A DNA stretch of 64,000 bases from Maribacter litopenaei (GTDB lineage: Bacteria; Bacteroidota; Bacteroidia; Flavobacteriales; Flavobacteriaceae). The position numbers were made by a program, and so were the translations under genes. Of this stretch, positions 1,071 through 62,686 are shown one piece after another. The stretch lies in the NCBI RefSeq assembly GCF_025244665.1, contig NZ_CP104205.1, positions 2,601,001 to 2,665,000 of the forward strand. Reading direction: 5' to 3'. Below the pieces are notes generated by a model that did no database searches, was not told where the DNA came from, and was given only the letters and a program-made list of their open reading frames with translations. The stretch's first letter is position 1, and each line of letters begins with the position of its first letter.

Positions 1071-3380
1071 TTATTTTCCTTTTATATTTTCCTTGAATTG
1101 ATCAAATTCATTTTGCTCCTCCTCTTTGGGCCAAGCATTATTGGTGGTATCAATATCCGCCGTTTCCATTTTGGGATCTACAACAACACCGGTCAGTTCG
1201 CTTCGGAAGAAATTACAATGCTCACCTCATCATCGTTCTTCCTCCAAATTTCCGCGGGATAGGTAATATTTTTAGTAGTACCATCTGCATAGGTATATTC
1301 CACTATCAAAGGCATAGGAATTCCCCCTGGCTTGTCATAGGTAATCTCATAAAAATATTTTGGCTCTTTTACAGCTGCCCTTTCCTCTGCGGTCATATTG
1401 TCCATCATAAACTCCTTAAGGGTCTGTGAACTTTCAGAAGGAGATTTTCCTTTTAGATTAGGATCAAAATCTTCGCTATCCTCTTCGGCCAAATATACCA
1501 ACGGAGGCAAGTCTGCTTCGGTCATATTTCTTGCTGCCATATATTCCTGCATCTTTTTGGTAGGTTTATCCGTTACGTAGTATTTCTTGATACCCTTTAC
1601 TCCAATATCTACGTAATCCGTAGTATAGAACCAACCCCTCCAATAATAATCCAAATCAACGGCGGAGGCATCCTCCATGGTTCTAAAGAAATCCTCCGGA
1701 GTTGGATGTTTGAACATCCATCTCCGGGCATACGTCTTGAAAGCATGGTCAAAAAGCTCTCTACCCATAACGGTTTCTCGCAAAATATTCAATGCTGTAG
1801 CGGGTTTACCATAGGCATTATAGTCCTAATTGATACACGTTCTCTGGATTGGACATAATAGGAGAAATGGTACTTTGATCTCCGCTCATGTAAGGAACGA
1901 TTTTCGCTGGGTCTCCCCTTCTAGAAGGATACTTATCATTTGGCGCGATAGCTTCGGGATATTTTTCCCCAAATTCCTGTTCCGCCATATATTGCATAAA
2001 GGTATCCAAGCCTTCGTCCATCCAACCCCACTGACGCTCATCGGAGTTTACGATCATAGGAAAGAAGTTATGGCCAACCTCGTGAATGATTACACTGATC
2101 ATTCCATACTTTACCCTATCAGAATAGGTGCCATCCTCATTAGGCCTACCATAGTTCCAACAAATCATGGGATATTCCATACCCTGATTTTTGGCATGAA
2201 CTGAAATCGCTTTTGGATACGGATAGTCGAATGTATGTGAAGAATAGGATCTTAACGTATGTGCTACTGCCTTGGTGGAATACTCCTCCCATAAAGGGTT
2301 TCCTTCTTTCGGATACATAGAAACGGCCATAATGTCCCTATCTCCCATTTTTACGGCTTGCATATCCCGGATAAATTTTCCGGAGGTAGCAAAACCAAAA
2401 TCACGTACATTTTCTGCCTTTAACTTCCAAGTCTTCGTCTTATCAGAAAAACCTTTTTCTGCAGCTTCCGCTTCCTCCTGCGTTACGATAACTACCGGCT
2501 TGTCATACGATTTTTTGGCCTGCTCATAACGTCGCATCATTTCCTTGGAATACACTTCCTTTCTATTTTGAAGCACTCCGGTACCATCCGAACATGGTCT
2601 GCCGGTACGGTTATATTCACTTCATAATTCCCAAAGGTCAATGCAAATTCTCCACTCCCCCGGAACTGATGGTTTTGCCATCCCTCTACGTCACTGTAAA
2701 CGGCCATTCTTGGAAAAAACTGGGCTATCACATAGGCACGGTTTCCATCTTTTGGAAAATACTCATAACCAGATCTTGCGCGGTTTACGGTATGATCGGG
2801 AATATTGTAGTTCCATTTAACCGAAAAAGTATATTGCTCGCCACTCTTTAAAGGAGTTGGGATGTCTACCCTCATCATAGTGAAGTTAATGGTATAGGGT
2901 AACGCTTTTCCGAGAGGCATCTTTTACAAAGTCAATATTAAAACCTCCATCAAAAGGTTCTCCCATATATTTTGCAGCGAAACCGTCCGGCTGTTCGGCC
3001 AAAGGAACCCCACCTCCGTTTCTTAAGGGAGCCTTGGAATCTTTGGCTCGTACATTTTGATCCAACTGTAACCAAAGGTATTCCAAATCATCGCGGGAGT
3101 TATTGGTATAGGTTATGGTCTCCTCACCATAGATTTTGGCATTCTTATCGTCCAAAGTAATATCCATCTTGTAATCCGCCTGTTGCTGATAATAGTCAGG
3201 AGCCGGTGCTCCCGATGCGGAACGATAGGTATTTGGGGTAGCAAATTCCTCATATAACTGTTTGAATTTGCTTTGGTTGTAGTGCCCCGGTTCCTTCTGC
3301 TTGGGCTCTTCATCCTGTGCAAAGGAAACAGCCGCAAATAGAAACAAAAGAGAGGCAAAAGTGTACTTAATTGTTCTCAT
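1071..3380 (-). CDS. Secreted M1-family zinc aminopeptidase (frame broken four times)
   Basis: M1 metallopeptidase with an N-terminal signal peptide (MRTIKYTFASLLFLFAAVSF, then AQDEE). The gluzincin zinc site is present: HEVGHNFFP (about residue 435) and, 18 residues on, the third ligand in WMDEGLDTF. The C-terminal part runs to an acidic-lysine tail. The reading frame is open in five pieces. Breaks lie near 2909-2915, 2587-2591, 1818-1828 and 1203-1207; three of the four are at a CCGGA motif. With two bases added and two removed, the 2310 bases give exactly 770 codons (769 residues), a normal length for exported flavobacterial M1 enzymes. The last 42 residues lie beyond the apparent stop at 1193. 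It likely degrades peptides in the periplasm or at the surface. Confidence 0.9.
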
Positions 3381-3441
3381 TATTTGTGTTAATTTTTATC
3401 CGCGGGAAATTAAAGTTTTTTAAAGAATTTCTTAACATACG

Positions 3442-3948
3442 TTATAAATTTAACATTCCTTTAGTATCGCTCTTGACAAGGACGTAGCTCTTTTTTTGAC
3501 CTTTCACTTTAAAATGGACTACATTCTGTTGATCATAGTACATATCCGTAAGCAACTCATTGGTGATGGCTATGGTTGAAACCCCTAAAAGGTTTATTTT
3601 AGGTACTTCCGGATAGCATATCACCATATCGGTGTCATACTTCTTCCCTAAAAATGTATAGGGTACTGTTTTTCCGTCTATTTCTACAGTAAATTTAGAG
3701 CGTAGGTACTTTTCAAAATACTCGCGATTCAATTCGGATTCTGCCTTGATTCCCAATTTTGGCTGAATACCGTAGCGTTCCTTCAAAACGGCATTCATAT
3801 CGTCCAAAAAAAGTCTAGAAGTAATTTGCAGGGCGTCATCTTTTTCAGAATAATTGACATTGGTAACGCTAATGTAAAACTTATGGGCTGCAGTAAAAGC
3901 CAATAATGGTAATATAAAAAGGAACACTCCCTTTTTTAAATTTTTCAT
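3442..3948 (-). CDS. DUF6702-like exported protein
   Basis: Small exported protein of 168 residues with a signal peptide (about residues 1-21, hydrophobic FLFILPLLAFTAA). The mature part is mixed alpha/beta with VNYSEKDDALQITSRLFLDD near its start, which I recognise as the flavobacterial DUF6702 family. No catalytic motif is visible. It sits 61 bases upstream of the M1 aminopeptidase start and 45 bases after the carboxypeptidase-regulatory-like gene, all on one strand. This grouping suggests an operon of envelope proteins. Function unknown. Confidence 0.75.
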   Translation of the reverse strand: MKNLKKGVFLFILPLLAFTAAHKFYISVTNVNYSEKDDALQITSRLFLDDMNAVLKERYGIQPKLGIKAESELNREYFEKYLRSKFTVEIDGKTVPYTFLGKKYDTDMVICYPEVPKINLLGVSTIAITNELLTDMYYDQQNVVHFKVKGQKKSYVLVKSDTKGMLNL

Positions 3949-3993
3949 TTGTTCTTATTTAATCAGTTCTACGCAAACGATATGCCAAATTCT

Positions 3994-61098: not shown

Positions 61099-61110
61099 GC
61101 TAACCAAAAA

Positions 61111-61536
61111 CTAATATTGTTCCAATAGATATTTTATCAAATCTGTAGTCGTTACAATTCCTACTAACTTTTCTTCATCTACAACCGGGAGTGCATGGAA
61201 CTCATTATGAGCTAAAATTTCAGCAACTTCTTTGATGGTAGTATCAGAGGAAATACTTTTAAGGTTTTTGGCCATGACTTGAGAAATCGTGAACATGTTG
61301 TATACAATGGTTTCCACATCGGAATCCTCTTCGTATGCCCCATCGGCAAAGCTGATACGTAGCAAGTCCGTCAGGCTTAACATCCCTTTGATCCTTTCAC
61401 CCTCTACCACAGGTATATGCCGAATATTATTTTCTTTGAAAAGGCGTTCTGCGGTTTCCAGTTCATCATTGCTATTTAATGTGATGATTTTCTTTGTCAT
61501 AATGGTTGAAACGGGTACTCTGTGTCTTAGACTCAT
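61111..61536 (-). CDS. CBS-pair domain protein
   Basis: 141 residues made almost wholly of two CBS motifs: VSTIMTKKIITLNSNDELET ... HIPVVEGERIKGMLSLTDLL, and VMAKNLKSISSDTTIKEVAE ... ALPVVDEEKLVGIVTTTDLI. Bateman modules bind adenine nucleotides and regulate partner proteins. No fused enzyme, and the neighbours (rpe, ypdA) do not reveal the partner. Frame intact. Soluble and cytoplasmic by composition. Confidence 0.9.
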   Translation of the reverse strand: MSLRHRVPVSTIMTKKIITLNSNDELETAERLFKENNIRHIPVVEGERIKGMLSLTDLLRISFADGAYEEDSDVETIVYNMFTISQVMAKNLKSISSDTTIKEVAEILAHNEFHALPVVDEEKLVGIVTTTDLIKYLLEQY

Positions 61537-61704
61537 AATTTTGATTTTTAATGATACTTAAAGTTCGGTCACTAGTTCTTCAAAAAGCATGATAAAAATC
61601 ATGTATAGAATCTTTACATTATTTTCGAAGCCGAAGCTCTCTACGATTCTTGTTTAAAATGGCTAATTTTGAGGCTTTACAAAACTTAGACCTTTTATAT
61701 ATAA

Positions 61705-62686
61705 ATGAAAATGGAATTGTTTGATATTGTCATTATAGGAGGCGGGCCAATAGGCATTGCATGTGGTCTAGAGGCACAAAAAAAAGAGCTGTCATATGTT
61801 ATACTGGAAAAAGGGCCTATAGTTAATTCTCTATTCAACTATCCTACCAACATGCAGTTTTTTTCATCATCTGAAAGACTAGAGATAGATGAAATTCCAT
61901 TTATCAGTAAAGAGGCAAAACCGAAGAGAGACGAAGCACTTGAATATTACCGAAGAATTGTAACTACCAACAAACTCAACATACATCTTTTTGAAAAAGT
62001 TGAGGATGTTAAAAAGTTGAATGACATTTTTCAGGTAAACACAAGCAAGGGGCATTACCAAGCTAAAAACATCATCGTTGCCACTGGATTTTATGATATT
62101 CCCAACTTATTGAATGTACCGGGAGAGGAATTGCCAAAAGTATCCCATTACTACGATAATCCCCACTTTTATGCCGGTCAGAAGGTAGCAGTTGTTGGGG
62201 CAAGCAATAGTGCTATAGACGCAGCATTGGAATGTTGGAGAAAGGGGGCAGAAGTTACGCTAATTATTAGGGGGGCTGAAGTGGGTCAAAGGGTTAAATA
62301 CTGGGTACGGCCGAGATATCATCAACAGGATTGAGGAAGGTAGTATTACGGCTTACTACAATAGCACCGTAAAGGCCATTCATAAGGACTCCTTGGAAAT
62401 CATCAATGAAAATGGAAAATCCAAAACAATCCCCAACGATTTTGTATTGGCACTTACGGGTTATAAACCAAACTTCGAATTTCTAAAAATGTTGGGAATT
62501 CATATTTCTGACGATGAAAAGAGACTACCGGAATACAATCCCGAGACTATGGAAACAAATATTTCGAATCTATATTTGGCCGGTGTAATATGTGGTGGAA
62601 TGGAAACCCATAAGTGGTTTATTGAAAATTCTAGAATACATGCGAAGATGATTATAGCCAATATCTTAGGAAACAAGCATACATAA
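61705..62686 (+). CDS. ypdA: YpdA-family bacillithiol-disulfide-reductase-like flavoprotein
   Basis: 326 residues after removing one base of CCGAGA at 62311-62316 (restores YWVRPDIINRIEEG). FAD motif DIVIIGGGPIGIACGLEA, NADPH motif KVAVVGASNSAIDAALECW, and the closing YLAGVICGGMETHKWFIEN, typical of YpdA. No CxxC redox motif is visible, as expected for this family. In Firmicutes YpdA reduces bacillithiol disulfide; Bacteroidota relatives are commonly annotated the same way, with the thiol inferred. It converges on the efflux gene with a 5-base gap. Confidence 0.88.

Follow-up and report, generated by a model that had tools for sequence, protein, structure and literature searches.

Why should one stretch of the Maribacter litopenaei genome contain so many interrupted genes? 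The stretch in question, 64,000 nucleotides at G000:C1:2601001-2665000 (hereafter the window), lies in a genome assembled as one contig of 3,864,532 bases, with an estimated completeness of 81.68% in spite of that single contig. The organism belongs among the marine Flavobacteriaceae, and the nearest relatives of its TrkH protein are found in a Bacteroidia metagenome-assembled genome (96%) and in Maribacter flavus and other Maribacter (no more than 95%). A sequence-only reading had noted about 40 frame breaks and false stops in the window, placed nearly all of them in the word CCGGA/TCCGG, and proposed that a modified base in this word disturbs the base calls. The notion of a modified motif is supported by the analysis reported here, but the motif is not CCGGA. 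The damaged word is likely to be CCAGA/TCTGG, and the breaks are likely to have arisen where methylated cytosines misled the consensus calling of nanopore reads, a reading to which we assign a probability of about 0.92.

Three relatives (G007, G005 and G013) served as references, each collinear with this genome and with a DNA identity of about 74-84% in most long blocks. Because about 20% of DNA positions are different in the relatives, the fate of single sites can be traced mainly through proteins, and these were aligned by a frameshift-aware programme, blind to any motif, to 324 kb comprising the window and its flanks (about 67,000 codons for G007); a larger sample of 556 kb adds to this main block twelve stretches outside it. 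Listed breaks are those away from alignment ends, breaks near the ends being filtered out. There are 175 distinct break places in the 324 kb, and a loose error-form pattern lies within 9 bases of 122 of them, against a background of 657 of 5000 random codons. The window holds 55 break calls, a few of which are double placings of one break, and 41 of the 55 have an error form of the right sign. The clustered breaks seen by eye were largely recovered, with 38 of the 40 listed places found again within 20 bases. Eleven window breaks are absent from the earlier list: three with an error form (15590, 42128 and 44722) and eight without, most of these eight coming from one relative only.

The breaks are confirmed as real features of the assembled sequence. 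When one relative is compared with another by the same method, the 83,226 aligned residues contain 4 frameshifts and 4 stops (G007 proteins on G005, one frameshift in 22,466 amino acids; G013 on G005, two stops in 19,898; G007 on G013, no break in 20,902; G005 on G013, three frameshifts and two stops in 19,960). This genome gives 239 frameshifts and 34 stops in 111,942 residues, places found with several relatives being counted several times (147 and 19 in 67,286 amino acids with G007 proteins, 47 and 8 in 22,329 with G005, and 45 and 7 in 22,327 with G013). The excess per aligned residue is about 44-fold for frameshifts and about 25-fold for frameshifts and stops together, and the relatives' genes are unbroken at the same places.

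Word counts identify what has been lost. By z-score against the three relatives CCAGA is the most depleted pentamer in the 324 kb, with 105 copies where about 552 (551.7) are expected (z -15.0). A count of CCGGA against other pentamers had been set beforehand as a refuting test of the CCGGA proposal, and it gives 817 copies seen against 625 expected, an excess. In the 556 kb 181 copies of CCAGA are left of 938 expected, so that about 81% are missing, and CCGAGA is enriched (237 seen, 86 expected); the window alone has 25 copies of CCAGA against 108 expected from the relatives. The neighbouring words CCAGC, CCAGT and CCAGG are not depleted in the 556 kb (seen/expected 1.17, 1.06 and 0.95), and the Dcm (CCWGG) word is unaffected, CCAGG being seen 581 times against 612 expected. 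CCGGA has 163 hits on both strands of the window, or 127 places, as 36 palindromic TCCGGA count twice; it is over-represented because part of it is misread CCAGA. For this reason the earlier estimate that damage strikes between a quarter and a third of the CCGGA sites is the wrong ratio, and the relevant figure is the four fifths or so of CCAGA sites that have gone.

The amino acids of the relatives discriminate directly between the two words. At the 122 broken sites with an error form we compared the relatives' residue at the codon covering the third motif letter; in the 61 whose frame separates the A from the G version, the residue is that of CCAGA in 54, that of CCGGA in one and another in six. 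By frame, Arg outnumbers Gly 15 to 1, Gln outnumbers Arg 8 to 0, Trp outnumbers Arg 6 to 0 and Leu outnumbers Pro 25 to 0. Unbroken sites tell the same story. In a scan of all pentamers and all single substitutions over the 324 kb, CCGGA in place of CCAGA ranks first, with 68 of 278 testable codons against a baseline of 1.2%, and most of places 3 to 9 in the ranking overlap this word; about a quarter of the testable CCGGA codons that look intact are thus miscalled CCAGA. Over 144 kb, 45 of 171 testable unbroken CCGGA codons show the CCAGA residue in relatives (26 of 94 in the window alone), and the same test with two relatives as targets gives 2 of 87 and 0 of 65. Control words over the 144 kb stay low, both the third-letter neighbours (CCGGC 0/50, CCGGG 1/76, CCGGT 0/149) and others (ACGGA 0/72, TCGGA 1/53, GCGGA 1/48, CCGCA 4/121, CCGAA 3/190, CCGTA 4/164, CCTGA 0/99, CCCGA 0/36). 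The CCGGT result agrees with the earlier observation that ACCGGT is undamaged.

Pairwise DNA alignments at about 80% identity were among the tests set aside. CCAGA is conserved at 3 of 105 sites with G007, 4 of 48 with G005 and 2 of 51 with G013, against 36%, 34% and 31% for all other pentamers, although some rarer pentamers are equally low or lower. Indels fall at 11 of 105 CCAGA sites in the G007 alignment against 0.7% elsewhere, with CTAGA as high (3/26), and in the G013 alignment CCAGA does not rank with the words richest in indels. Lost CCAGA is replaced by CCGGA, which is silent or missense, by CCGA or CCGAGA, which break the frame, and by rarer forms.

The loss extends over the whole genome and depends on the neighbouring bases. 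Counting both strands, CCCAGA occurs 129 times against 1270 for the reversed word. In a table of 397 family genomes no other ratio comes close to this one of 0.10, the second lowest being G347 (87 against 308). The other genomes in a set of 36 Maribacter have ratios of about 0.8 to 1.2. One further genome of the family, G400, is also low (164 against 375); the low ratios of G347 and G400 may reflect composition, avoidance of the word or a milder form of the artefact. Within the 556 kb CCAGA survives in 0-3% of cases in CCCAGAA, CCCAGAC and CCCAGAG and in 59% in ACCAGAT. Such dependence on both flanks would fit a nanopore signal that spans several neighbouring bases, and has no evident reason under mutation or selection.

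A second, weaker affected word is GGACC, which is partly replaced by GGATC. It is second in depletion in the 324 kb (243 seen, 417.9 expected, z -6.7) while GGATC is enriched (434 against 276.8), and the 556 kb give 401 against 710 and 689 against 471, respectively; the window has 91 copies of GGATC and 59 of GGACC. GATCC for GGTCC is also second in the substitution scan, at 29 of 147 testable codons. Reading GGACC as GGATC produces missense changes and false stops; at three of the false stops (-36444, -947 and 121194 in window numbering) the assembly reads GGATC and a relative GGACC. Fifty-one break places lack the loose error form. Some of these are poor alignments, and 8 of the 51 are single losses with a run of at least 6 within 9 bases; homopolymer indels are described as a classic nanopore error (PMC10687267).

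The breaks in the window are given below by window position and strand, with the number of relatives (of three) for which the frameshift-aware protein alignment gives the break.

1203..1206, minus strand: frame break -1, TCGG; three relatives
2588..2591, plus strand: frame break -1, CCGA; three relatives
2910..2915, plus strand: frame break +1, CCGAGA; three relatives
6139..6142, minus strand: frame break -1, TCGG; three relatives
8827: poor call of -2 matching the listed site 8808; local identity 0.29
8909..8914, plus strand: frame break +1, CCGAGA; two relatives
10132..10137, plus strand: frame break +1, CCGAGA; three relatives
13474..13479, plus strand: frame break +1, CCGAGA; one relative
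14412..14415, minus strand: frame break -1, TCGG; one relative
15590..15595, plus strand: frame break +1, CCGAGA, new; three relatives
15799..15803, plus strand: false stop, CCGTA; one relative
16136..16139, minus strand: frame break -1, TCGG; two relatives
16656..16660, plus strand: listed site with CCGTA in the sequence; no break from any aligned gene, even with alignment ends kept
18554..18557, minus strand: frame break -1, TCGG; three relatives
19243..19248, plus strand: frame break +1, CCGAGA; three relatives
20226..20231, plus strand: frame break +1, CCGTGA; three relatives
20419..20424, plus strand: frame break +1, CCGTGA; three relatives
20876..20881, plus strand: frame break +1, CCGTGA; three relatives
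21646..21651, plus strand: frame break +1, CCGAGA; three relatives
23824..23829, plus strand: frame break +1, CCGAGA; three relatives
26452..26456, minus strand: false stop, TACGG; three relatives
27961..27966, minus strand: frame break +1, TCTCGG; three relatives
29378..29381, minus strand: frame break -1, TCGG; three relatives
29490..29495, plus strand: frame break +1, CCGTGA; three relatives
37501..37504, no strand assigned: frame break -1, listed site; G007 only, near an alignment end and filtered from the main listing
39917..39921, minus strand: false stop, TACGG; three relatives
40109..40112, minus strand: frame break -1, TCGG (earlier placed at 40125, outside the motif); three relatives
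40158..40161, minus strand: frame break -1, TCGG; three relatives
40375..40378, minus strand: frame break -1, TCGG; three relatives
41155..41158, minus strand: frame break -1, TCGG; three relatives
42128..42133, plus strand: frame break +1, CCGAGA, new; three relatives
42344..42349, minus strand: frame break +1, TCTCGG; three relatives
44062..44065, plus strand: frame break -1, CCGA; three relatives
44679..44682, plus strand: frame break -1, CCGA; two relatives, G005 putting the -1 at 44722
44722..44725, plus strand: frame break -1, CCGA, perhaps the break at 44679 placed differently; one relative
45417..45422, minus strand: frame break +1, TCTCGG; three relatives
47032..47037, plus strand: frame break +1, CCGTGA; three relatives
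50266..50271, plus strand: frame break +1, CCGAGA; three relatives
51075..51080, minus strand: frame break +1, TCCCGG; three relatives
52074..52078, plus strand: false stop, CCGTA; three relatives
52484..52487, minus strand: frame break -1, TCGG; three relatives
53267..53272, plus strand: frame break +1, CCGAGA; three relatives
58611..58616, plus strand: frame break +1, CCGAGA; three relatives
62311..62316, plus strand: frame break +1, CCGAGA; three relatives
1821, no strand assigned: frame break +1 outside the motif, unexplained; three relatives
15356, no strand assigned: frame break -1 outside the motif, beside GGTCC; three relatives
24468, no strand assigned: frame break -1 outside the motif, unexplained; three relatives

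The two listed places that were not plainly recovered are 16656, which is missing altogether, and 37501, which appears with G007 when alignment ends are kept. Three of the four breaks that the sequence-only reading had placed elsewhere do lie outside the motif (1821, 15356 and 24468), and the fourth, at 40125, proved to be the motif break at 40109. The window also encodes a collagen-repeat protein of 844 amino acids (PF01391, 323 bits) at 10977-13511, and carries an S15-Flavobacteria ribosomal protein leader (76.7 bits) at 47645-47709.

The expectation that DNA methyltransferases would be found elsewhere in the genome is borne out by three C5 methyltransferase (PF00145) loci, together with two genes of the N6_Mtase type, of which one is clearly HsdM and the other HsdM-like. 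The C5 loci are as follows.

G000:C1:1952124-1953626: first C5 enzyme, 501 amino acids, helix-turn-helix and C5 domains, with an HNH nuclease gene directly after it
G000:C1:3681918-3683159: second C5 enzyme, 414 amino acids; the best 120 of its relatives listed are largely Maribacter, Zobellia and metagenome proteins
G000:C1:3174912-3176331: third C5 enzyme (L003), its gene in two overlapping pieces

The first of these is probably, on balance, the CCAGA enzyme. It is rare, being present in 3 of the 397 family genomes, and in the other two its neighbour is a relative of the same HNH nuclease (74% and 34% identity), with which it would form a type II restriction-modification pair. The Dcm model scores the first enzyme at 151 bits, the second at 83 and the longer piece of the third at 23.5, none of them anywhere near its cut-off of 710. 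The first enzyme matches E. coli Dcm at 28.6% identity over 359 residues, which is too distant for inferring a recognition word, and its nearest plasmid relatives are three at 55-56% identity. Two of these three (in Acinetobacter and Vitreoscilla; L174 and L173) stand with an AAA ATPase and an LlaJI-family nuclease, not with an HNH nuclease. KpnI, SphI and PacI read palindromes. They are reported to be HNH nucleases, as are HpyAV, MnlI and HphI, whose cuts fall outside the asymmetric words that they recognise (PMC2816704); the titles of references, including some in PMC2816704, describe HphI and MnlI as type IIS.

SinI recognises GGWCC, and the third enzyme is the putative source of the GGACC errors. 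Among its best 120 relatives listed, two are named modification methylase SinI (77% and 66% identity), which suggests a SinI-like enzyme that would mark GGWCC, the word also reported for Eco47I (PMC10899764). The form TCTCGG falls inside the overlap of the two pieces of its gene, so that in the living cell the gene is probably intact and its product would have modified the DNA; from the assembly, an annotation pipeline would take the enzyme for inactive.

HsdM systems read two-part words. No genes of PF01555 or PF02086 were found in the genome, the Dam-type and MT-A70 families not being searched, and the PF02384 and PF07669 hits are the HsdM gene, the HsdM-like gene and PrmC- and TrmN-like enzymes. 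On the families searched, adenine methyltransferases were set aside as the cause. An HsdM-like gene at G000:C1:2872067-2876002 (L131) is in pieces, perhaps through the same artefact.

A plausible scenario is that a C5 methyltransferase marks the inner cytosine on both strands, giving C-5mC-A-G-A over T-5mC-T-G-G (5mC, or m5C, being 5-methylcytosine) in the geometry of Dcm, CCAGA being half a Dcm site. The middle A:T pair would then have 5mC just before it on either strand, and for this reason the damage may fall at that letter without the strands correcting each other; both strands would be misread and the consensus would fail at CCAGA, while a separate SinI-like enzyme would mark GGWCC. Both methylation and the nanopore platform are presumed here; the assembly is a single contig 81.68% complete, and single losses beside runs of at least 6 make up 8 of the 51 other breaks. 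In its fullest form the proposal is that one Dcm-like C5 enzyme, in a rare HNH pair in a marine Bacteroidota, methylates the asymmetric CCAGA/TCTGG on both strands, and that the errors spell a two-word methylome of CCAGA and GGWCC. We offer this version tentatively, and would not bet on it at even odds.

There are precedents. In a Klebsiella genome called with the default models of then-current Oxford Nanopore Technologies callers, Wick 2019 found about 70% of the consensus errors within the Dcm motifs CCAGG/CCTGG, and gives as the cause a training set without that modification (PMC6591954). The present errors resemble those in lying inside a motif where 5mC would occupy a short C-5mC-W-G context, and differ in that the word is CCAGA, CCAGG is undepleted and some 81% of CCAGA sites are lost. 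Chiou 2023 describes genomes of other bacteria in which the errors centre on GCTGG or GCAGC and which gained much from amplification (PMC10687267). As there, a pentamer would carry a modification that the caller had not learned, few strains are concerned and related genomes show the true letters; the word and organism are different, and those errors are described as mismatches whereas many here are indels (PMC10687267). An m5C enzyme specific for CCAGA has already been reported in Neisseria, the meningococcal NEIS0771 / M.Nme15193ORF2725P, with activity supported by MspJI cleavage (PMC7973814, PMC7046676). That enzyme (PMC7973814, PMC7046676) and the present case would share the word CCAGA and the m5C class, and C5 methyltransferase genes are present here; the phylum is another, and the proposed likeness is one of word and class. 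A study of MspJI fragments reports that a meningococcus has, besides CCWGG, an activity on the asymmetric CCWGA/TCWGG; the method used there implies that each strand of such sites carries 5mC, and the authors call it unclear how this comes about (PMC8112702). GGACC as second affected word, with two listed relatives of the third enzyme named SinI, resembles the M.SinI type of GGWCC enzyme, although the name is source annotation, one relative is named HaeIII and GGWCC specificity is putative here. In the literature searched, as judged by titles and the beginnings of abstracts, there is no report of nanopore errors at CCAGA, nor of nanopore errors or methylation of this kind in Maribacter, and on CCAGA and MspJI the only relevant reports are the meningococcal methylome papers.

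Several observations weigh against methylated CCAGA or against parts of the scheme built on it. Seventy break calls have no matching form, some of them poor alignments and some unexplained. At half of the residue-test sites, 61 of 122, the frame makes the two words synonymous (Pro or Ser), so that they cannot be told apart. CCGTGA and CCGTA are two changes from CCAGA and one from CCGGA; CCGTGA/TCACGG is found at 8 of 122 breaks and CCGTA at 6, and neither is enriched in whole counts (CCGTGA 139 against 137, CCGTA 1025 against 1067). In the relatives' DNA near the 166 break calls made with G007, CCAGA occurs at 29, CCGGA at 25 and neither at 112; since half of the sites are in synonymous frames the nearby word is uninformative, and as a test it was replaced by that of residues. 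One relative of the third enzyme (P0343, 65%) is named HaeIII in its source annotation. A word that is asymmetric typically calls for two methyltransferases (PMC8112702, PMC2816704), which makes methylation of both strands by one enzyme a guess. The second C5 enzyme, too, is a candidate for CCAGA. It belongs to the right class and is widespread in Maribacter and Zobellia, the best 120 of its relatives listed being largely from these genera and from metagenomes; the artefact would be the same, and genomes from other platforms would show no errors. None of the 35 other Maribacter genomes is depleted, though their platforms are unknown and presence of the gene in each is unchecked, and G007 carries the gene, yet there is no excess C-to-T change at CCAGA between relatives (TCTGG to TTTGG 81/404, ACTGG to ATTGG 67/333). 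We regard this assignment as unlikely, if still worth keeping in mind.

Explanations that dispense with methylated CCAGA fare much worse. That CCGGA/TCCGG is itself the modified and damaged word is very improbable, even though the observed forms are mostly one change from it and some relatives have CCGGA near the break. The earlier statement that restoring CCGGA gives whole codons is true, but CCAGA does so equally, and CCGGA was rejected as the motif by its excess count, the substitution scan and the residue test. Taken at face value the sequence records real mutations, in a decaying genome or through active change of CCAGA in living cells, and to this we attach almost no credence: housekeeping genes are affected, about four fifths of one word is altered in every sampled part while the relatives are intact, and survival tracks the flanking bases. 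It is just as hard to credit that CCAGA is truly avoided under restriction pressure, with a few unrelated errors besides. Restriction-modification genes are present, but avoidance makes no frameshifts and no swaps of Trp, Gln, Leu or Arg codons at conserved positions, and two family genomes that encode a near relative of the candidate show no such depletion (CCCAGA against the reversed word, 472 to 563 in G306 and 771 to 435 in G377).

Consensus errors at methylated CCAGA would have consequences for the use of this genome, which at about 82% completeness stands as the sole representative of its species. Along the aligned coding sequence a false break turns up about once in 1.7 kb (122 places showing an error form in the roughly 67,000 codons aligned to G007), with silent and missense errors besides, and gene content, pseudogene counts and trees taken from this assembly would mislead. 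Word counts together with conserved residues in relatives recover the affected words from the assembly alone, and this comparison put right the word misidentified in a careful reading by eye. One of the two words fits the source name of relatives of an enzyme encoded in the same genome. If the one-enzyme CCAGA system and the two-word methylome are true, then the errors in public genomes built from long reads only could be used to recover methyltransferase specificities, without raw signal.

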